From a virus: a stretch of DNA of 51,771 bases. The stretch lies in IMG/VR virus record IMGVR_UViG_3300010885_063635, positions 1-51,771 of that record. The stretch is one strand, 5' to 3'. The translations under genes and the position numbers were made by a program. The notes beneath the pieces are model-generated. The model saw only the letters and a list, made by a program, of their open reading frames with translations. It was not told the origin of the DNA and made no database searches. How positions within the stretch are numbered: the first letter of the stretch is position 1; every line of letters starts with the position of its first letter. This document shows positions 11,909 through 47,951 of the stretch, piece after piece.

Positions 11909-11959
11909 TTATGGACAGCCGCAAGCTGTTGATTTTATCTTAACCACAATGAGGAATTG

Positions 11960-12697
11960 ATGAGTAGACAAAGAGCAACCAAAGCGCAAAAACGTCAATC
12001 TATGACACATCAAGAAAACACAATCCGATTTGATCAAGTAAAGCCAATCAAGCAAAGACCCATTGATATTGTGCCACGCACAAGAAATCAAGAACGTCTT
12101 GTGTTGGCGTTGCAAGATGACACCCAGTCGATTGTGATCACAGCCGGTCCTGCAGGCACAGGTAAAACTTATCTGGCCATGTTGGCTGCTGTTCAAGCAT
12201 TCAGAGAAGGAGCAGTAGATAGAATAGTATTGACACGCCCAGCAGTGGGTGTGGAGGATGAAAAACACGGATTTTTACCCGGTGATCTCAATCAAAAAAT
12301 GGATCCTTGGGTACGCCCGTTGACTGACATTTTACGTGAGTATTATCGTCAGCCCAACATCCTGAACATGATAGCCGAACAGACCATCGAAATCGCACCC
12401 TTGGCTTTCATGCGAGGTAGAACTTTTAAGGGTGCGTTTATCATTGCTGATGAAATGCAAAATGCCACTCCGGCACAGTGCAAGATGCTGATGACTCGTA
12501 TCGGAGCCGGCAGCAAAATAGTAATCACCGGTGACATAGAACAGGCCGATCGCAATCGCGGCAACAATGGACTGATGGACCTTTGTACTCGATTGGAGAA
12601 GGGGGGTGTAAAAGGAATAGCTGTGTGCTCATTAGACAATCGAGACATACAGCGACACACTATCATTGATAGTGTGTTACGACTTTACACCGATTAG
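11960..12697 (+). CDS. phoH: PhoH-like P-loop ATPase
   Basis: A 245-aa PhoH domain. Walker A is GPAGTGKT (residues 63-70), followed by VLTRPAVGVEDEKHGFLPGD, a PhoH family hallmark, then Walker B FIIADEMQNA, the sensor strand KIVITGDIEQAD and RHTIIDSVL at the end. It is an NTPase related to superfamily 1 helicases and is one of the commonest auxiliary genes in marine T4-like phages. In E. coli phoH belongs to the Pho regulon, but the phage function is unresolved. The ATG at 11960 follows GAGGAA; a TTG directly before it is in frame. It converges with the SGNH gene, overlapping by 4 nt. Confidence 0.95.
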   Translation: MSRQRATKAQKRQSMTHQENTIRFDQVKPIKQRPIDIVPRTRNQERLVLALQDDTQSIVITAGPAGTGKTYLAMLAAVQAFREGAVDRIVLTRPAVGVEDEKHGFLPGDLNQKMDPWVRPLTDILREYYRQPNILNMIAEQTIEIAPLAFMRGRTFKGAFIIADEMQNATPAQCKMLMTRIGAGSKIVITGDIEQADRNRGNNGLMDLCTRLEKGGVKGIAVCSLDNRDIQRHTIIDSVLRLYTD

Positions 12698-14073: not shown

Positions 14074-14976
14074 TCAAAGTGCAGGACAGTTGTATTGACA
14101 ACCCGGTTGCTGATCCAGTGTTTGGTAAAATTCCACCGTCGGTGGTTGTTGCAACAGTTGGGTCAGGGTGTGTTTTTGTATGTCATACTGTTTTTTGTTT
14201 TTACCAAACGGTGTTTTATAATAGAATCTATGGTCGGCCAAGTAGCAACAAGAACTGTAATGGCCGTCGGCCGTGATAAAATGTTCAGCACCGTCCTGGC
14301 ATTTTGGCTTGACAGTGGTCTGGGAGTCGCCCGATTTCCAATCGGTTTGTGATCTATATCGAGCACCCAACAGGTTGGAATCTGGCACCAACCACTGTGT
14401 TTTTTCATCAAATCGATCGCTAGGATACAGTTGAAATTGATCAATTCCGATTTCTTGACTCAATTTTTCCACACGATCAATGTCGTGTTGATTGAAAGAA
14501 AACGGAATATATTTCCAGACGCTTTGACAACTTGACTGGGCCACTACCTGCATACCAGTTTTGATCGTAGCCCAATCGGCATTGACTCTGTATTGGGTAA
14601 AATTCTCAGGTGTTCCATCAACACTAAAATGTATTCGGTCCTGGTTGGTCAAATTACCAACCAGTTGTTCCCACCATTCCTGTGTTCGATGGCTGCCATT
14701 AGTGATGATTGACAAAGTGGCACCACGCTGTTTCAGTCGGTGTACAAATTCAATGAAATCTGGGTGATATATAGGATCTCCGTAATTGCCACACAACAAT
14801 ATTTTCTTGTCACAAAGGTCAATATCAAGAAACTCCAGCACTGTATCAATATCTAAACTGTGATTTTTCCAATGTTGCGGCCATTGTTCAATAAATCTAG
14901 TCCTAGAACATCCGGCACATTTCAATGTGCAGATGTTGGTAGGCTCAATGTGAATTCTCGAAATTGCGTCAATCAT
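14074..14976 (-). CDS. Radical SAM enzyme (300 aa)
   Basis: The cluster motif CTLKCAGC (Cys16, Cys20, Cys23) opens the barrel, followed by KILLCGNYGDPIYHPDF (the GGE-type SAM-binding strand in the form GNYGDP), ITNGSH and IHFSVDGTPENF. The C-terminal part holds PKCQDGAEHFI, SSCCYLADHRF and CQYNC, which could bind an auxiliary Fe-S cluster. These enzymes make a 5'-deoxyadenosyl radical and often modify peptides. The substrate is unknown. The start overlaps the stop of the 93-aa gene by 4 nt, and the other radical SAM gene lies one gene upstream. Confidence 0.85.
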   Translation of the reverse strand: MIDAISRIHIEPTNICTLKCAGCSRTRFIEQWPQHWKNHSLDIDTVLEFLDIDLCDKKILLCGNYGDPIYHPDFIEFVHRLKQRGATLSIITNGSHRTQEWWEQLVGNLTNQDRIHFSVDGTPENFTQYRVNADWATIKTGMQVVAQSSCQSVWKYIPFSFNQHDIDRVEKLSQEIGIDQFQLYPSDRFDEKTQWLVPDSNLLGARYRSQTDWKSGDSQTTVKPKCQDGAEHFITADGHYSSCCYLADHRFYYKTPFGKNKKQYDIQKHTLTQLLQQPPTVEFYQTLDQQPGCQYNCPAL

Positions 14977-15254
14977 GTTGGGGTTGCAGGGGCATCCGCC
15001 ATTTTGTGTCCGTTTTCTTCAAACAAACGCTCAATGATGGCTGTGTAATACTTGTAGTAGTAAGCAACCACAGTGTCCCAATCTTTGACTGCGGCTTGAC
15101 CAGCCACAGAGGCCTTCAGCACCTGTTGATCTCGAAAATCCAAAATCACATTGGCTGTTTGCCAATCTGTGCGTTTGACACGTTTGGCCACTGCCATGAC
15201 TTCGTCGATTTTTCCGTCTGGTTTGGTATAGTAGGTCAGCAACAGGTATCTCAT
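14973..15254 (-). CDS. T4-like conserved protein, 93 aa
   Basis: Begins MRYLLLTYYTKPDGKIDEVM and continues with TANVILDFRDQQVLKASV and YYYKYYTAIIERLFEENGH. Proteins of this form are conserved in T4-like cyanophages near the clamp-loader and polymerase genes. Function unknown. Here it lies between two radical SAM genes, overlapping both by 4 nt, so the cassette is translated as a unit with gp44. No catalytic motif is visible. Confidence 0.7.
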   Translation of the reverse strand: MRYLLLTYYTKPDGKIDEVMAVAKRVKRTDWQTANVILDFRDQQVLKASVAGQAAVKDWDTVVAYYYKYYTAIIERLFEENGHKMADAPATPT

Positions 15255-16384
15255 GATTGTGGAACTTTCTGATATTTTTTCATAATTGACTTATATGTAT
15301 CTAGATCCTGGGCCTTGGGAGCGCAAAGGCCACACAAACAGGTTGATTTTTTGCACTGTATTACTGACTGTCCGGCGGCTAGACGTTGTTGTAATTGATC
15401 AATGATTTTGTCCGTGTGATCCAGGGTACCAATCGGGCCCACTGTGCCATCGAAAGTCATTTTGCAATCTTTGTTGACAAACACTTCTCCAGTGAGTTGT
15501 TTGACAAATAGAAAAAATTGATCCACACTGCAATACCAATCAGTGAATCGATTGTCCAACACATAGTATTCACGTGTTTTATAATCCTGATCTAAGCAAG
15601 TTTGTCGTCCGCCACAACAGGCCCGTCCTATCTTGCTGAGATCTTGATCTTTATAGTCTTCTTTGTTGAATTGATTGATTGCCTTATAGCTTTTTCTTTG
15701 ATAAAATGAGTCAAACCATTTTATACTTTTTTCGTTATAAGATCTAAGATTATCCGATCTATTATCAATCTGTTTGGGCAAGGCTGCTATTTGATGGTCC
15801 TTTAACCAATCTAGAAACTCAGTGGCTTCCTGAAACAGCACCGGATCGTTGTGCATTATGACTATGCACTTGAGGCGTTTTCTTGCATTGCGTATGGTGA
15901 TTAAATTTTCTTTGAACTGTTGTTTTTGTTTGGCAGTGCTTTCCACATGCGAACTCACAGTGAATTCATCAATGTAGGGCAGTATCTTCAACAACTTTTT
16001 ATGGGGAACTATGGCATTGGTGGTGGTGGTCACTGTCAGATGCCATCGATCTGCATAGGGCGTGTACTTTGTACGCACAGTTGACAATATTTCTACTATG
16101 TCAGGATGATGTAGGCTTTCGCCACCGTACACATTCAATACCACATAGCGTATGCCTTTGGGCTTGTACTGCATGTATTGATCCACATATTCAAACATGA
16201 AATCCAAAGCCTGCAGACAGGCAGTTTTGTCAGGATGTTGGGTGCTGTTGTCGTGACCACCGTAAAGATCAGAAGTGCAATAGCTGCAATCAAGATTGCA
16301 CTTCATGGTCAGTTCCCAGTCTAACAAAAACGTGATCCGATTGTTGGGATCGATTGCCGGTTCCAAGACCTGAAAATTGGGCAT
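15251..16384 (-). CDS. Radical SAM enzyme (377 aa)
   Basis: Canonical CNLDCSYC (Cys29, Cys33, Cys36), then VVLNVYGGESLHHPD (GGE motif), TVTTTTNAIVP and EFTVSSHVEST. The C-terminal half contains many cysteines (ACCGGRQTC, DWYCSVD, NKDCKM and the cluster CKKSTCLCGLC), consistent with SPASM/twitch-type auxiliary clusters. This architecture is common in enzymes that modify ribosomally made peptides or proteins. Its start shares 1 nt with the gp44 stop. Acquisition between gp44 and its usual T4-like neighbour suggests a modular insertion. Confidence 0.85.
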   Translation of the reverse strand: MPNFQVLEPAIDPNNRITFLLDWELTMKCNLDCSYCTSDLYGGHDNSTQHPDKTACLQALDFMFEYVDQYMQYKPKGIRYVVLNVYGGESLHHPDIVEILSTVRTKYTPYADRWHLTVTTTTNAIVPHKKLLKILPYIDEFTVSSHVESTAKQKQQFKENLITIRNARKRLKCIVIMHNDPVLFQEATEFLDWLKDHQIAALPKQIDNRSDNLRSYNEKSIKWFDSFYQRKSYKAINQFNKEDYKDQDLSKIGRACCGGRQTCLDQDYKTREYYVLDNRFTDWYCSVDQFFLFVKQLTGEVFVNKDCKMTFDGTVGPIGTLDHTDKIIDQLQQRLAAGQSVIQCKKSTCLCGLCAPKAQDLDTYKSIMKKYQKVPQS

Positions 16385-34519: not shown

Positions 34520-35710
34520 TCAAAAGTCTGGATCAAACTGCCGACAGAGCGTGTAGAACTCAGGAAACGTTTGGCCAAAAATTTCATTGCGATATTCGTC
34601 TTTGGCCCGAGTCCAGAATTTAAAATCTTCCCAATGTTGCAAATTTTCGACCGAGCCCAACATGTTGATTAAGAATTGTATCTTTGAAATGTGTTGATAG
34701 GTTTTTAATTTTTCAATAACCGCTGCTTTTATTACAACTGGTAGATGTGTAATATCGTAATAGGCCGGTCCATGCAAGGTGTTTAAAAAATAAGAAAGAT
34801 CTATTTGGTCCAGGGTGTTCAACAGCTCTGGTAGATAAAATATATTCAAATTGCTCACTGTGCAGATGGCATTGAATTTGACCGGTATGGTCCACGGACG
34901 AGTGCGAATGTCAGTCACATTGGTCAACCAATCCTGCCAAATACCCGGATGTCTAGCATAGGTAAATCGAGCCTCGATGTCGTCCACGCTGAAATTGAAT
35001 TCAAGAGCCTGGAACTGAGACCAGAGTTGATAGTGAGTTTCAGTTGGTGCCACTGTGCCGTTGGTGTTGTAAAACAAAGTGATGTTTTTGCTTTGTCCAG
35101 AATCCACTAGTTTTTGCAACAGTGTCAGGGTAGGAATATCCAGTAAAGGTTCTCCTCCATAAAATTCAATTCTTTGTAAATTTTTTCCCAGGTTGAACAT
35201 TTGATCAATTTGTTGACTGGAAAATTTTATTGGTTTTTTTCGATTGGCAGTGTATCGATTGTTGGGCAAATTGTATTGGTCTTTGTAATACTTGCCCTCA
35301 ACTGCATAAGTTGACGAACTTGCTACACAACAGACTCGGCAACGTAGATTGCAGGTATTGCCTACCATGATATTGATTTGTGTGGGACCTTCTTGATACC
35401 CCGATTTTAAAAATGGCATCAACTCCCCAGGAGCAAATTTTTTAGTGGGCGAAGACAATAATCTTTTTCTTAAACTTTGATTGCCATAATCTTCCTGTTC
35501 CCAACACCGATTGCACACTTGATGTTTTTGGTTGCTGGCAAACGAATTTCTTAAATCATCAAATTCGTCCGAGTTCCACATGCGAATCAGATCAATTGTT
35601 TTTTCTTTCCAAGGTCGGCCGCCGATTTCTGGACAAGGGCTGTAGTTGCCGGTGGGACCAAATGTAACTTGGGTAAATGGTGCAATGCAGAAAAATTTTC
35701 CAGGGTTCAT
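34520..35710 (-). CDS. Radical SAM enzyme with N-terminal auxiliary cysteines, 396 aa
   Basis: Canonical CNLRCRVC (Cys120, Cys124, Cys127), GGEP in IEFYGGEPLLD, NTNGTV and NFSVDDIEARF. The N-terminus FFCIAPFTQVTFGPTGNYSPCPE together with QVCNRCWEQE (Cys8, 26, 66, 69) forms a SPASM-like auxiliary cluster set placed before the barrel instead of after it. Enzymes of this arrangement are found in T4-like cyanophages and marine bacteria, with unknown substrates. A 76-aa and a 74-aa gene flank it closely; either could be a partner. Confidence 0.85.
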   Translation of the reverse strand: MNPGKFFCIAPFTQVTFGPTGNYSPCPEIGGRPWKEKTIDLIRMWNSDEFDDLRNSFASNQKHQVCNRCWEQEDYGNQSLRKRLLSSPTKKFAPGELMPFLKSGYQEGPTQINIMVGNTCNLRCRVCCVASSSTYAVEGKYYKDQYNLPNNRYTANRKKPIKFSSQQIDQMFNLGKNLQRIEFYGGEPLLDIPTLTLLQKLVDSGQSKNITLFYNTNGTVAPTETHYQLWSQFQALEFNFSVDDIEARFTYARHPGIWQDWLTNVTDIRTRPWTIPVKFNAICTVSNLNIFYLPELLNTLDQIDLSYFLNTLHGPAYYDITHLPVVIKAAVIEKLKTYQHISKIQFLINMLGSVENLQHWEDFKFWTRAKDEYRNEIFGQTFPEFYTLCRQFDPDF

Positions 35711-41887: not shown

Positions 41888-42538
41888 ATGAAGCCCACCA
41901 TAGCTCTATTCATATACGACCCCAAGTGCTCAGTGCAGTGCGGAAATGGGCTTATGCAAGCACTCAGTCCCTACTACAACTTCAAATTGTTTTCAAAAAA
42001 TCGTGTTGAAAATGTGTTTTTTGAAGACGTAGACATAGTTGCTGTGCCCGGGGGCATAGGTGATGCCGACACATTCACACAACTGTTCAAAAACAATGCC
42101 AATCGAGTACGAGAATTCGTGGGCCAAGGCGGCGGCTATCTAGGCATTTGTATGGGTGCATACTGGGCAGGATCACACTACCTCAACATTCTAAAAGAAG
42201 TAGATGCAGTACAATATTTGAAACGCCCGGGCACAGATACCCGACGCCCGCATGCCAAAAACATCGCCATCAACTGGCAGGGTCAAGACATGTCCATGTT
42301 CTGGTACGATGGTTGTGCCCTGGTGGGCAACCGTGATCGATTTGAAACTGTGGCCACCTACAGCAACGGTGATGCCATGGCCATTTATCAGGATCGCATC
42401 GGGCTAATTGGTTGTCACCCCGAAAGCGAAAAGTTTTGGTATGACGGCTACAGTTGGATGCGGCCTCATTGGCATCACCGTGCGCATCATCAACTGTTGG
42501 TGGATTTTGTTGATCAACTGTATCGACGCCAAAAATAA
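41888..42538 (+). CDS. Class I amidotransferase-like protein (BPL_N type), 216 aa
   Basis: It has the nucleophile elbow GICMGAYWAG (Cys88), strand DIVAVPGGIGDADT before it and CHPES (His177, Glu179) at the end, as in the biotin-protein-ligase N-terminal group of the amidotransferase superfamily. The protein is a stand-alone domain with no ligase part. The substrate is unknown. A second amidotransferase-like protein (7912) is present in the window, but the two do not look recently duplicated. It precedes the Mpo1-like membrane gene by 18 nt. Confidence 0.75.
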   Translation: MKPTIALFIYDPKCSVQCGNGLMQALSPYYNFKLFSKNRVENVFFEDVDIVAVPGGIGDADTFTQLFKNNANRVREFVGQGGGYLGICMGAYWAGSHYLNILKEVDAVQYLKRPGTDTRRPHAKNIAINWQGQDMSMFWYDGCALVGNRDRFETVATYSNGDAMAIYQDRIGLIGCHPESEKFWYDGYSWMRPHWHHRAHHQLLVDFVDQLYRRQK

Positions 42539-42556: not shown

Positions 42557-43165
42557 ATGAAAGAAATTCTACAAACACTTAAAGAGCAACGTTGGGACGA
42601 CCATCGTTATTATCATCACAGCAGAATCAATCAATTTTTGCATTTGATCTCAGCCACAAGTTTTTTGATTGCCTATGTATATCTATTCATTGATCCGGTT
42701 GTGAGTGCTTATGTTGCATGGTTGATTGCCATGACCACTCGTCAAGCCGGTCATTTCTTCTTTGAACCACACGGCTACGATGAATACAACAATGCCACAT
42801 TCGAATACAAAGAGAAAATCAAAATTGGGTTCAATTTAAAACGCAAACGTGTGTTGATGGCCTGTTTTGTAGCTGTACCATTATTGGCCTATTTTGATGC
42901 TGAGCTGATGAATGTGTTGATACCCGATAATGATCCAATGACCTTTGTGAATCGTGTGGGCATGGGTTGGTTATGGTTGGGTGCAGCCGGTGTTGTGTTT
43001 AGAATGATTCAACTCACTGCATTGCAAAGCAGACGAGTTGCATTGGTTTGGTGTCTCAAAATTGTAACAGACCCATTCCACGATGTGTGGATTTATCGCA
43101 AGAGTCCCATTTACTTGATGCAGGGTCAATTGATTGATCCTGACCTGCGCCAAGATTACGAATAA
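42557..43165 (+). CDS. Multi-pass membrane protein, Mpo1/DUF962-like features
   Basis: A 202-aa protein with about four hydrophobic helices (near 28-46, 50-65, 97-117, 137-158). The N-terminal part YYHHSRINQFLHLISATSF and later RQAGHFFFEPHGYDE resemble the H-x-N...H and GHxxFE elements of Mpo1/DUF962 proteins, some of which oxidise 2-hydroxy fatty acids using iron. The similarity is limited, so this is a suggestion. AAAGGAAA precedes the ATG. It converges on the glycosyltransferase gene, with a 10-nt overlap, beside the possible lipid-remodelling pair. Confidence 0.6.
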   Translation: MKEILQTLKEQRWDDHRYYHHSRINQFLHLISATSFLIAYVYLFIDPVVSAYVAWLIAMTTRQAGHFFFEPHGYDEYNNATFEYKEKIKIGFNLKRKRVLMACFVAVPLLAYFDAELMNVLIPDNDPMTFVNRVGMGWLWLGAAGVVFRMIQLTALQSRRVALVWCLKIVTDPFHDVWIYRKSPIYLMQGQLIDPDLRQDYE

Positions 43166-44187
43166 CCATCCTCATCAGTCCACTTGCCGTTGGGAGTGAG
43201 ATTGTCTCGGAATATATGCCAGGCACGCTCCCAACTCCAACGATGACTACCTGACCAAACTTGTTGTCTTGACAAGAACAAACAATCTGTCACCGCTTGT
43301 TTCAAGTCATCATTCATACAACCAGTGATGCCTTCGTCAATCACATCTACAGGACCCTGCACCGGATATGCTGCAACTGGTGTGCCGCAGGCCATGGCTT
43401 CAATCATCACAAGGCCAAATGTTTCCCACTTACTGGGAAATACAAATACATCTGCCATGGCATAATATCGTGCTAGATCGGCACCGGTCTTGTAACCAAC
43501 AAAGTTTATATCAGGATAACGTTGTTCTAGTTCTGCTCGGTATGGGCCATCACCCACAATGATTTTGTTAGCACCGGTGAATTGCAAATTGCAAAAATCA
43601 TCTAGATTCTTTTCTCGGCTCACACGGCCCACATACAACAAGATAGGGCCATTGACCACTGTGTCAGTTCTATATCCTGGATGAAATACCGTACGATCAA
43701 CCCCACGGGTCCAGGATATAATATCACCATCAAAGCCGTGTTCGTGTAACTCTGTGACCATTGAGTCTGTGGTGGTCAATACTTTGCCTGAATGTTTGTG
43801 GAACCAACGCACATAACGCCAAGTCCATGATTCGGGTATGCCGGCTATCTTTTTTAAGCCTTCAGGAAACTTAGTATGGTAAGCAGTATTATACCGACGA
43901 TTCCGCTGGTCAAGATAAAATCTAGCGTACAGACCAAGAGGACCTTCGGTGGCGATGTGTATATAATCCGGAGCCACAGCCCTAATCTTCTTCCCAATCT
44001 TCCAGGGAATCGAAATTTTAATTTCACGGTAGCCTGGGCTACTAACATGTAAGAACTCCAGGGGAGTAAGGTATACAACACGATAGCCGTCCAAAACCGC
44101 CAGTGCCTCAATGTTCTTGTATGTTGTGACCACACCATTTATTTGCTCCGGTAAGTTGTCTGTAATGATCAATATTGTTTTTTGCAT
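43156..44187 (-). CDS. GT4-family glycosyltransferase (Agt-like)
   Basis: A 343-aa GT-B glycosyltransferase. The N-terminal Rossmann fold starts TILIITDNLPEQINGVVTTY, the loop typical of retaining GT4 lipid glycosyltransferases. The C-terminal half has LLYVGRVSREKNLDDF, IIVGDGPYRAEL, FVFPSKWETFGLVMIEAMACGTPV with the E-x7-E pair, and QGPVDVI. These features match sulfolipid/diacylglycerol glycosyltransferases such as SqdX and Agt. It follows the PlcP-like gene by 60 nt on the same strand. Likely transfers a sugar from a nucleotide donor to diacylglycerol or another lipid. Confidence 0.85.
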   Translation of the reverse strand: MQKTILIITDNLPEQINGVVTTYKNIEALAVLDGYRVVYLTPLEFLHVSSPGYREIKISIPWKIGKKIRAVAPDYIHIATEGPLGLYARFYLDQRNRRYNTAYHTKFPEGLKKIAGIPESWTWRYVRWFHKHSGKVLTTTDSMVTELHEHGFDGDIISWTRGVDRTVFHPGYRTDTVVNGPILLYVGRVSREKNLDDFCNLQFTGANKIIVGDGPYRAELEQRYPDINFVGYKTGADLARYYAMADVFVFPSKWETFGLVMIEAMACGTPVAAYPVQGPVDVIDEGITGCMNDDLKQAVTDCLFLSRQQVWSGSHRWSWERAWHIFRDNLTPNGKWTDEDGYS

Positions 44188-44247
44188 TCGCCTGTTACCT
44201 TGAATGTTTTGAATTTTAAATCATATCGCATAGTCGCCAGCACTTGT

Positions 44248-45093
44248 TCACAACTGTTTTGCGTTGGAAAAATCAATTCTATTCTTCCGGGTTGATCTTG
44301 CGGGTTCGTTGTGTGTACTGCTATCAATATCATCAACCACATTGTCGCTCTCCTGTGTCCATGTTACAATTTCCCATGTGCCATCATGATGTTCTACCAA
44401 GGCTGTACATGACTCTACCCAGTCCCCGTCATTCATATATGTCACACCATCTATGAGTTTGATTTCTGCGTGATGTATGTGTCCGCAGATCACACCATCA
44501 AATCCACGTTTCTTACAATATGCAGCAAGGTTGTGTTCAAAGTGAAATATAAAGTCTACTGCTTTTTTGACCCGGTGTTTAAGGAACAGGCTAAGGCTAA
44601 AGTACCCAAAACCAAAATGGTGACGAATCCAATTAATGCGGGTATTGAGTCCAAGAATGAAATCATATGCTTTGTCTCCCAACATGGCCAACCACGGAGC
44701 CAGTCTGGTAATGCCGTCAAATAAATCGCCATGCACCACAAGATAGTGTCGACCATCTGCACCTATGTGCTCTGTTTGATTTACCAATTCAATTATGCCA
44801 AATCCAATGCCATAATGCATGAAAGGTCTTAGAAACTCGTCATGATTACCAGCCACATATACAACCCTAGTACCACGCTTGCTATGACCCAGAACGCGGC
44901 GAATGACATTGGTGTGACTTTGTTTCCATCGCCATTTGTTTTGTTTAATTTTCCAAGCATCAATGATGTCTCCTACGAGATATAGAGTTTCGCAGGTGTT
45001 GTGTTTGAGGAAGTTGTTGAGGCGATCTGCTTGACAATCTCTAGTACCAAGATGCACATCACTGATGAATATACTGCGATAGGTCTTCTGCAT
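44248..45093 (-). CDS. LpxH/PlcP-like metallophosphoesterase
   Basis: A 281-aa calcineurin-like phosphoesterase with all metal motifs: SDVHLG (Asp12, His14), GDIID (Asp42), AGNHDE (Asn83, His84), VHGD (His121) and CGHIHH (His205, His207). The family is commonly annotated UDP-2,3-diacylglucosamine diphosphatase, but forms of about 270-290 aa next to a GT4 gene are often PlcP, a phospholipase C that splits membrane phospholipids to diacylglycerol during phosphate starvation. A late box ends 4 nt before the ATG, and a Pho-box-like sequence lies just upstream. The C-terminal tail is Asp/Ser/Arg-rich. Confidence 0.85.
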   Translation of the reverse strand: MQKTYRSIFISDVHLGTRDCQADRLNNFLKHNTCETLYLVGDIIDAWKIKQNKWRWKQSHTNVIRRVLGHSKRGTRVVYVAGNHDEFLRPFMHYGIGFGIIELVNQTEHIGADGRHYLVVHGDLFDGITRLAPWLAMLGDKAYDFILGLNTRINWIRHHFGFGYFSLSLFLKHRVKKAVDFIFHFEHNLAAYCKKRGFDGVICGHIHHAEIKLIDGVTYMNDGDWVESCTALVEHHDGTWEIVTWTQESDNVVDDIDSSTHNEPARSTRKNRIDFSNAKQL

Positions 45094-45097
45094 GTAA

Positions 45098-45105
45098 TAT
45101 TTACG
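45098..45105 (-). promoter_or_regulatory. Late-type box close to the PlcP-like ATG
   Basis: CGTAAATA followed by 4 nt (TTAC) and the ATG at 45093; near, but one base short of, the leaderless spacing seen elsewhere. Confidence 0.4.
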
Positions 45106-45114
45106 CAGAAGACC

Positions 45115-45132
45115 ATTACAGTTTTGTTACGA
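45115..45132 (-). promoter_or_regulatory. Pho-box-like sequence
   Basis: TCGTAAC AAAA CTGTAAT on the minus strand agrees with CTGTCAT AAAA CTGTCAT at 13 of 18 positions, with the second half and the A-tract nearly perfect. It could allow host PhoB to activate the PlcP-GT4 pair. A match of this quality could arise by chance. Confidence 0.3.
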
Positions 45133-45291: not shown

Positions 45292-45299
45292 TATTTAAC
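45292..45299 (-). promoter_or_regulatory. T4-type late promoter box (GTTAAATA)
   Basis: GTTAAATA on the minus strand, 20 nt before the 43-aa gene and overlapping the AhpD-like stop. Confidence 0.5.
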
Positions 45300-45801
45300 T
45301 ATTTAACACCCGGGCCACTGATGTCATCACAGCGGCAATACGCCCAATGTCACGCAGTTGTTCCACGGTGTAGCCTTCTTGCTTGAGTGTGTCATAGTGT
45401 GCTTTTACACAGAAGTGACACTTGCCCACAATGCTGGCTGCAAGACTGAATGCTTCAAAGTTGGCCTTGCTAGTTCCGCCATGTGACGCAATAGCATTCA
45501 TGCGTAAACCTGCTGGTAATCCTTTTAGACTTTCATCATCAGCCATTTCCACATAGGGATACCATACATTGTTCTGTGCCATAATACTAGCCGCTGTCAT
45601 GGCTGACTCTGCATGTACTGGAGCATCTGCTAAAATTACTGATAGGATTTTACCGTTACCAGTTGCAGCCAGTGCGGCCACAGCACATCCCATGGCCACA
45701 TCGGCGTCCAAGGTACTACGCAGTAGAACAGCATCAAGATTTAACTTGGTGTCCTTGGCATAGTCTGGTAACGCTGTTTTAACTGATTCAATAAAACTCA
45801 T
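45295..45801 (-). CDS. AhpD-like alkylhydroperoxidase
   Basis: A 168-aa all-helical carboxymuconolactone-decarboxylase/AhpD protein with the catalytic pair Cys128-x2-Cys131 and His135 in GKCHFCVKAHYD. AhpD in mycobacteria reduces AhpC and itself has weak peroxidase activity. Length matches AhpD (about 175 aa). Its ATG overlaps the stop of the interrupted SGNH frame (ATGA), and AhpC-type peroxiredoxin lies one gene upstream, so an AhpC-AhpD detoxification pair is plausible. Confidence 0.88.
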   Translation of the reverse strand: MSFIESVKTALPDYAKDTKLNLDAVLLRSTLDADVAMGCAVAALAATGNGKILSVILADAPVHAESAMTAASIMAQNNVWYPYVEMADDESLKGLPAGLRMNAIASHGGTSKANFEAFSLAASIVGKCHFCVKAHYDTLKQEGYTVEQLRDIGRIAAVMTSVARVLNS

Positions 45802-46217: not shown

Positions 46218-46751
46218 TTACAGTGTCTCTCCGCCCACAGTGCGGTTGCAAGCACACAGTTCACCAGTTTGCAATGCGTCAAGAACTCGCAAGGTTTCTT
46301 CTGGGCTACGACCCACATCCAAATTATTAACTGTTACGTGTTGAATAACGTTGTCAGGATCAACAATGAATGTGGCGCGAAGTGCGGCACCGGCTGGTGC
46401 AAAGAACACACCCAACTGTTCTGCCAAGCTCAATTCGCCACGCTGGGTGTCGGCAAACTGAATATGACGGATCTTGCCCAAGTCTTCGTGGCTACGTTGC
46501 CAGGCCAACTTGCAGAACTCGTTGTCTGTTGAACCTGTGAGCAACACTGCGTCGCGGTCCTCAAAGTCTTGGAACAGCTTGTCATAGGCCACGATCTCTG
46601 TGGGGCAAACAAATGTAAAGTCCTTGGGATAGAAAGCAATCACTTTCCACTTGCCGGCAAAGCTCTCATCGGTGATAGTAAAGAAATCATCTCGACCAGG
46701 ATTGACGCCGGTTACGGCAAATTTTTCGATCTTGTTACCTACTGTTTTCAT
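46218..46751 (-). CDS. AhpC-type 2-Cys peroxiredoxin
   Basis: A 177-aa peroxiredoxin with peroxidatic Cys49 in FYPKDFTFVCPTE and C-terminal Cys166/Cys168 (ELCACNRT). The GSTDNEFCKLAWQ helix and RATFIVDPDNVIQH strand match AhpC. It reduces hydrogen and alkyl peroxides; reductant may be AhpD nearby or host thioredoxin. GAAAGGAAA precedes the ATG at 46751. A TTGATT-17-TACAAT promoter lies about 50 nt upstream, with a long inverted repeat behind it. Length and motif match AhpE/AhpC forms of actinobacteria and proteobacteria. Confidence 0.93.
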   Translation of the reverse strand: MKTVGNKIEKFAVTGVNPGRDDFFTITDESFAGKWKVIAFYPKDFTFVCPTEIVAYDKLFQDFEDRDAVLLTGSTDNEFCKLAWQRSHEDLGKIRHIQFADTQRGELSLAEQLGVFFAPAGAALRATFIVDPDNVIQHVTVNNLDVGRSPEETLRVLDALQTGELCACNRTVGGETL

Positions 46752-46802
46752 GTGTTTTCCTTTCAAAGTTTAATAGAGGATCAGTGTTTGTACTGATGTG
46801 TT

Positions 46803-46892: not shown

Positions 46893-47951
46893 CTAGGTGG
46901 GTTTGTGTCCAATGTATTCGTGACTGTAGCACACACGGCCTGCATCTCTAGCCGTGGTAGTGCCGCCGTAGCCGGGCATTTTTCTAGCAGTGCCATCTTT
47001 CAACAGATAACTGCCGGTGCGACTTTTTAGATTGGTACTGGTAGCCCGCCACAAGGCACTGCGTTGTCGGTGTTCTCCAAAACTGGGATGTGCAGTCTTG
47101 CTGAAGTATCTCAGGCCCCGACTCACGTAGATTTCAGCAATGGCATCACTGAACGCTGTGCCAATGCCCAGGCCTTGAAATTCCGGCAACACCACTGTTC
47201 GGTGACCACGCCAGTAACTGTGTATGTCTCGGTTGGTGCTGTGTATTGCGGCATGAAACGCCACTGGTTTGTGGCCTATTAGTCCCACATAGCAATGCAC
47301 CGACCTGCTCATTTGTGTGTCTAGATAATGATACTTTGAGAAATATCGCCAATGGTCCGGAGTTGTGCTTCGGATGTCAAGTGTGATTTTTGGTCGCCCC
47401 ATTCGAAGAAGTGACCTCCGGTCTTCTAAGACACAGAGATCCGTGTCATATGTGTAGTCAGGATTCAACCAGTCTACTATGTCTCTGTGACAGCTGGCAA
47501 TGTACAAGGCACCAGGATCGGTCTGACGATCGTAGTACCGGCGCACACTGTAGGCCAGGCTTTTGGCAGTGTCTCTATCCACCACGGATGTGAATTCGTC
47601 AATGACCGAGACGCCCTGATCCAGACTCACGGCCATTTCAAATCTATGATATTCGCCATTGCTGAGAGTGCGAGCCGGACGAAACCAGGCCGGAATTGTG
47701 CGCAGGCCACAGGCCAACAGCAGTTCTTCGCCCTGTTGGGCTGTGCTGAAATTTGCAATCACTGCCTGATCCTGATCAATTCGCGGTTGTTGCAGTTGAC
47801 CAAGACTGCGCAGTATCGTGCTTTTGCCCGATCCTGACGTGCCCACAATCAACACTATGCCATCTTGCGGCAAAGTTGGGATGTTGATGGCCGGCTCTTT
47901 GTAGTCGTGGATGTCGTACTTTTTACGAATAGTTTCTAGATAGTCGCTCAT
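46893..47951 (-). CDS. ABC-type ATPase fused to a GNAT acetyltransferase domain
   Basis: Residues 1-190 form an ABC-class ATPase: Walker A GTSGSGKS (37-44), a signature-like LSNGEYHRFEMA and Walker B VSVIDEF. Residues 200-350 form a GNAT fold with YHYLDTQMSRSVHCYVGLIG at the start and the acetyl-CoA loop LPEFQGLGIGTAF. This is the layout of COG2401-type proteins (ABC ATPase with predicted acetyltransferase), also related to the GNAT-type Mom DNA-modification enzyme of phage Mu. It is translationally coupled (ATGA) to an HNH-like gene. A role in modifying phage DNA or RNA is a reasoned guess. Confidence 0.8.
   Translation of the reverse strand: MSDYLETIRKKYDIHDYKEPAINIPTLPQDGIVLIVGTSGSGKSTILRSLGQLQQPRIDQDQAVIANFSTAQQGEELLLACGLRTIPAWFRPARTLSNGEYHRFEMAVSLDQGVSVIDEFTSVVDRDTAKSLAYSVRRYYDRQTDPGALYIASCHRDIVDWLNPDYTYDTDLCVLEDRRSLLRMGRPKITLDIRSTTPDHWRYFSKYHYLDTQMSRSVHCYVGLIGHKPVAFHAAIHSTNRDIHSYWRGHRTVVLPEFQGLGIGTAFSDAIAEIYVSRGLRYFSKTAHPSFGEHRQRSALWRATSTNLKSRTGSYLLKDGTARKMPGYGGTTTARDAGRVCYSHEYIGHKPT

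Follow-up and report, generated by a model that had tools for sequence, protein, structure and literature searches.

A phage operon predicted to renovate host membrane lipids: a PlcP-like phosphoesterase paired with an Agt-like glycosyltransferase behind a Pho-box-like promoter

In bacteria, PlcP makes diacylglycerol (DAG) from phospholipid and Agt glycosylates the DAG, and the operon encoding the two enzymes is under Pho control (PMC8528852, PMC4796936, PMC8231724). In Pseudomonas aeruginosa the pathway is encoded by PA3219-PA3218, which lie in the order plcP-agt in an operon controlled by a Pho box (PMC8528852), and the locus described here has the same order. However, it is encoded by a phage, its glycosyltransferase reads WETFG instead of TDTYG, and its promoter consists of TGTAAY repeats with TAAATA 11 nt away. 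The Agt enzymes of SAR11 and Agrobacterium (GTcp and Atu2297, DAG glycosyltransferases of family GT4) have the GRVxxEKN motif, the donor-site residues and the catalytic His in common with the phage glycosyltransferase (PMC8231724), whereas the viral subclade to which the latter belongs has Glu in place of the catalytic Asp and Trp in place of the preceding Thr. Among viruses, cyanophages with pstS, such as Synechococcus virus S-PM2d, are also T4-like and carry phosphate genes and Pho boxes with PhoB binding (PMC10976474); their PhoB-linked genes, however, act on phosphate uptake or on phage genes, and none has been reported to convert membrane phospholipids. Cyanophage lipid desaturases (PMC5776448, cited in PMC11480375) are lipid-modifying auxiliary genes too, but they alter fatty acids and not head groups, and they release no phosphate.

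The window, by which we mean the whole stretch of 51,771 nucleotides that was analysed (IMG/VR record IMGVR_UViG_3300010885_063635), belongs to a viral record and encodes a T4-type clamp loader, a phage endolysin and phoH. Its source is apparently a T4-like, freshwater phage, although the freshwater label is our assumption from its relatives and from general knowledge of IMG/VR sources and does not come from a metadata field. Two intact open reading frames lie head to tail on the minus strand: the gene for a plcP-like metallophosphoesterase (44248–45093, 281 aa, a predicted phospholipase C) comes first and is followed, after a gap of 60 bp, by an agt-like GT4 gene (43156–44187, 343 aa, a predicted diacylglycerol glycosyltransferase). 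An earlier note on this DNA had described a phosphoesterase with complete metal motifs followed on the same strand by a GT4 enzyme; the order is as it described, and the motifs SDVHLG, GDIID, GNHDE, HGD and GHIHH are all present. The phoH gene, which it had also reported, was found outside the operon at 11957–12697 on the plus strand (PF02562 match at 12068–12688, E = 2e-72, 237.7 bits) and by itself is only weak evidence for a phosphate role.

Other genes of the window drew our attention as well. Convergent with the glycosyltransferase gene lies an Mpo1-like (DUF962) membrane protein gene (42557–43165, plus strand), whose Pfam score of 20.6 bits is below the cut-off; such a gene adjoins the glycosyltransferase in about 15 relatives, and P. 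aeruginosa has another close to its plcP-agt1 genes. It is possible that the window gene is a third lipid gene. On the other side, beside plcP and kept in many relatives, are an AhpD-like carboxymuconolactone decarboxylase and an AhpC-type peroxiredoxin (45295–45801 and 46218–46766, minus strand), possibly a phage peroxide-defence pair. A BPL_N/glutamine-amidotransferase-like protein (41888–42538, plus strand) is found near plcP in many relatives with varying orientation. The protein encoded at 46893–47951 (minus strand) combines a terminal ABC-type ATPase P-loop with a GNAT acetyltransferase at its opposite end; it matches phrog_11143 (E = 3.1e-84), a phage family to which no function has been assigned. 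The minus strand also encodes three radical SAM proteins, at 14074–16384 and 34520–35710; two of these lie close together, and their product is unknown.

The phosphoesterase matched Metallophos (PF00149) at 1.9e-10 in a profile search, and its metal ligands were invariant in an alignment of 36 sequences. It is 57% identical to the homologue of P. aeruginosa PA3219 (PlcP; L223) and 47% identical to a Sinorhizobium meliloti homologue (L224) that we take to be SMc00171 from its position beside AHL synthase and LuxR genes. Its closest cellular relatives are mostly alphaproteobacterial proteins (50–63%). LpxH (UDP-2,3-diacylglucosamine hydrolase) shares its calcineurin-like fold and its metal motifs and gives it its usual database label. 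However, a tree that took in six LpxH sequences, with those from a plasmid collection used for the gammaproteobacteria, split LpxH with support of 100/99 from the PlcP homologues, among them the window protein, SMc00171 (as assigned) and PA3219. The active-site signature of the window protein is GNHDE; almost every PlcP row reads GNHD, with GNHE in that of S-SRM01, as opposed to GNRDF in 5 of 5 gammaproteobacterial LpxH rows; the Bacteroides LpxH row, far off on a very long branch, reads GNHDI. Against the NCBIfam LpxH models the window protein scored 42.2 bits where the cut-off is 134 and 34.7 bits where it is 190. The AlphaFold model was of moderate confidence (pLDDT 77), and LpxH structures were its nearest solved folds, as expected for the superfamily. 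On the strength of tree, signature and sub-cut-off scores we reject an LpxH identity, and the placement with true LpxH that would have refuted a PlcP-like phosphoesterase was not seen.

The glycosyltransferase matched Glyco_trans_1_4 at 2.8e-25 and Glyco_transf_4 at 1.3e-12 in a profile search. Over about 330 residues it is 37–47% identical to Agt-like proteins from 56 of 142 alphaproteobacterial genomes, which is at or below the 46–58% reported within the family; identity to the homologue of Agt1 (PA3218; L223) is 43%, whereas most other GT4 enzymes reach no more than about 30%. In the tree the viral glycosyltransferases were monophyletic (100/99) and nested within the bacterial Agt clade that holds P. 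aeruginosa Agt1. WaaG and WaaB, representing non-lipid GT4 enzymes, did not join the Agt group, although their branches were very long; the assignment to the DAG-glycosyltransferase type, made in the earlier note, thus survived the comparison that could have overturned it. The structural model has a GT-B fold (pLDDT 93), and a structure search returned only generic GT-B/GT4 relatives (BshA, MshA), which does not settle the acceptor.

The active site of this enzyme is conserved in part. GRVxxEKN, the catalytic His and the donor-site Gly, Arg, Lys and Glu are invariant columns when set against the GTcp residues in PMC8231724; the window protein reads GRVSREKN, and the first Gly varies in some relatives. 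The Agt motif FPSxTDTFG with its catalytic Asp is absent from the window protein, which reads FPSKWETFG. The form FPSxWETFG characterizes the window-side subclade, whereas the sister viral subclade keeps xDTFG. The homologue of Agt2 (PA0842), which was identified by its position beside plcR, reads SETFG, and because Agt2 is a DAG glucuronosyltransferase (PMC8528852), Glu at this position is compatible with DAG glycosylation. The Trp before the Glu is unusual, and judging from the residues alone the donor may differ from that of Agt. The sugar donor, which can only be inferred, therefore remains uncertain, and on sequence grounds the enzyme is Agt-like, that is, a member of the Agt clade with a variant active site.

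The pairing of the two genes is not confined to the window. A scan of IMG/VR gave at least 596 confirmed plcP-encoding viral stretches and 469 stretches with the glycosyltransferase. The relatives sampled from these were the best matches to the window and not a random sample, so the fractions that follow describe the clade and not all phages. In all 72 evaluable viral GT4 loci, plcP lay directly upstream on the same strand, the two genes usually overlapping or less than 130 bp apart. Conversely, among 74 evaluable viral plcP loci, GT4 came next in 31, a GT2 enzyme took its place in 40, neither was present in 3, and no locus had both. With a glycosyltransferase directly downstream in 71 of the 74 loci, phage plcP almost always travels with such an enzyme, of one of two unrelated families. 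Conservation of the genes across hundreds of contigs excludes a chance pairing. The GT2 partner (PF00535) begins between 13 bp before and 103 bp after the end of the plcP match (L067:8882–9625 is an example), and its lipid product is unknown. In one locus (L159) a divergent PlcP (53%) is joined to the same type of GT4. In isolates, plcP alone was found in pelagiphage Mosig and in the freshwater Synechococcus phage S-SRM01. The T4-like capsid protein Gp23 was encoded by 11 of 24 large contigs, which reach 367 kb; contamination by host DNA was considered and rejected on the strength of Gp23, of the monophyly of the viral glycosyltransferases and of the phage genes in the window. A conserved unknown protein (MRxEDLAARLVxVEAKLAxLTG...) lies downstream of plcP and the glycosyltransferase gene in three loci, with its own Pho-box-like repeat about 60–65 bp upstream.

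Phosphate genes were found near plcP in many of these contigs. PstS scored above the curated cut-off in 13 of 24 contigs (431.9 bits against 339 in one example), and in 12 of those 13 it was encoded within about 5 kb of plcP. Several pstS genes lie only 100–170 bp from plcP and run in the same direction, as in contig G006 (PstS, 69129–70046; plcP, 68261–69028). A phosphate-selective porin is encoded near plcP in 8 loci (porin match, E = 1e-45), and in pelagiphage Mosig plcP adjoins a gene annotated as a putative phosphate ABC transporter. No pstS homologue was found in the window fragment. In one locus (L060) plcP has no glycosyltransferase and is followed, on inspection by eye, by a PhoH-like open reading frame.

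Upstream of plcP in the window lies a Pho-box-like direct repeat, TCGTAACAAAACTGTAAT (45115–45132, minus strand), 21 nt from the ATG and with one mismatch to YTGTMAYNNNNYTGTMAY; its end coincides with the end coordinate (45132) of the feature marked in the earlier note. Exactly 11 nt past the repeat is TAAATA (45098–45103, minus strand), a putative, T4-late-like −10 element. Of 92 dereplicated loci, 46 had the pattern TGTMAY-N5-TGTMAY in the 100 bp preceding plcP, compared with 0.025 expected from shuffles; this pattern covers CTGTCATNNNNCTGTCAT, the Pho box consensus of PMC8528852. Across 25 whole records there were 35 matches, of which 14 lay just upstream of plcP and 12 (at 10 promoters) upstream of pstS, whereas the reversed pattern, used as a control, gave 25 scattered matches. 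In a set of 80 plcP loci, 35 of 47 matches preceded plcP and 7 preceded pstS. TAAATA followed every plcP repeat in 52 relatives, at 11 nt in 34 of them and at 21–22 nt, one helical turn more, in 18. Two TGTMAY half-sites with an 11-bp period upstream of the −10 element, an arrangement shared with pstS, are exact in many relatives; the window copy has the one mismatch. Some viral plcP loci have, in place of the Pho-box promoter, a different conserved element upstream, AATCGGTCAC...GGTGACTCTGGA...CGTAACCAGA; in several loci with this element pstS and the porin gene lie upstream.

These counts depend on how the motif was chosen. When the half-sites were restricted to CTGTCAT, an initial scan exceeded the shuffled sequences only slightly (best scores 8–11 of 14, shuffled mean 8.9). 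The TGTMAY form was taken from inspected upstream sequences and then tested against shuffles, other open reading frames and the reversed pattern; because it was chosen after these sequences had been seen, the pstS sites are the more independent test. The control count among other upstream regions (36 of 1382) is too high, since it took in alternative start codons of plcP as well as pstS. Within the window itself, a scan allowing two mismatches gave 22 sites where 20.8 were expected, which is chance level, so the support for the window repeat is positional. TAAATA also occurs upstream of several other window genes; that it is a T4-type late −10 element is an inference and may be the case. Pho boxes predicted in phages can turn out to be unreliable or non-functional, although there is precedent for cyanophage promoters being bound by PhoB (PMC10976474). 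The promoter hints that the operon is transcribed through host PhoB when cells run short of phosphate, with PhoB binding inferred and the host unknown.

Taken together, we consider it probable that the pair forms a Pho-controlled phage operon of two genes that hydrolyses phospholipid, sets phosphate free and makes good the lost membrane lipid with glycolipid. Under phosphate starvation the operon would be transcribed by way of host PhoB. PlcP would cut the phosphorylated head group off host phospholipids, yielding DAG and a phospho-head group from which phosphate could be recovered, and the Agt-like GT4 would transfer a sugar from a UDP-sugar to the DAG, so that membrane bulk would be kept as glycolipid. 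The freed phosphate would then serve phage DNA synthesis. The enzyme activities, the lipid change during infection and the benefit to the phage are inferred, no biochemical or lipidomic data being available for any viral copy.

The earlier note had allowed that such a pair might either scavenge phosphate or change the envelope to affect lysis or superinfection. We favour phosphate scavenging because of the linked pstS and phosphate porin and because of the Pho-box-like promoters before both plcP and pstS, where the repeat is concentrated. A role mainly in remodelling the membrane or envelope to alter lysis, superinfection or adsorption, with phosphate release incidental, seems unlikely on these grounds, but it has some support: glycolipids from lipid renovation protect against polymyxin B (PMC8528852), an unpublished remark in PMC9804370 mentions altered phage adsorption, the exchange of GT4 for GT2 might indicate that what counts is the lipid head group, and DesA-like desaturases are encoded near plcP in 12 relatives.

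Other doubts concern the enzymes themselves. Conversion of phospholipid to glycolipid might be the right activity while the acceptor or donor of the window glycosyltransferase has been shifted by the W-E change, so that the product is not MGDG or GADG. The restriction of FPSxWETFG to the window-side subclade, with xDTFG in the sister viral enzymes, would fit such a shift; we nevertheless regard it as improbable, since GT4 shares an operon with PlcP in all 72 evaluable loci, the remaining donor-site residues listed for GTcp are conserved and Agt2 also carries Glu. We give hardly any credence to a lipid A route, in which a true LpxH would act on UDP-diacylglucosamine and the GT4 would modify the LPS core or O-antigen. 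Such a reading can draw on LpxH as the best HMM and fold match and on public records, which name the homologues UDP-2,3-diacylglucosamine hydrolase or diphosphatase, but it is contradicted by the separate LpxH group, by scores far under the NCBIfam cut-offs, by GNH[DE] in the PlcP rows where five gammaproteobacterial LpxH have GNRDF, and by a glycosyltransferase that sits within Agt and not with WaaG or WaaB.

We found no report of phage plcP-agt in the open full-text library that was searched (subscription papers and preprints were outside the scope), and the literature examined on pelagiphage Mosig does not discuss plcP. Viral plcP is easily overlooked, since PlcP is recorded in databases under the name of LpxH, which belongs to lipid A metabolism. 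A virome list from Lake Baikal has one lpxH entry, which could be phage plcP under another name, and some of the genes listed as lpxH for viruses may belong to the PlcP pathway.

Phages are phosphorus-rich, and phosphorus is often limiting in lakes and oceans; the known viral phosphate genes help phosphate import. Because the unit recurs in very many phage contigs, viruses may mine host membranes for phosphate. We lean towards the wider view that a lipid-renovation operon inducible by host PhoB is common in T4-like phages of aquatic, probably mostly freshwater, habitats. It would consist of plcP and either of two exchangeable glycosyltransferases, often with pstS and a phosphate porin, and would strip membrane phosphate for viral DNA while glycolipid keeps the membrane intact, a phosphate source that has not so far been attributed to viruses. 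If this is true, the phage would tap the phosphate bound up in host membranes, and infected cells would be rich in glycolipid, with effects on lysis, on grazing and on the phosphorus released to the food web.
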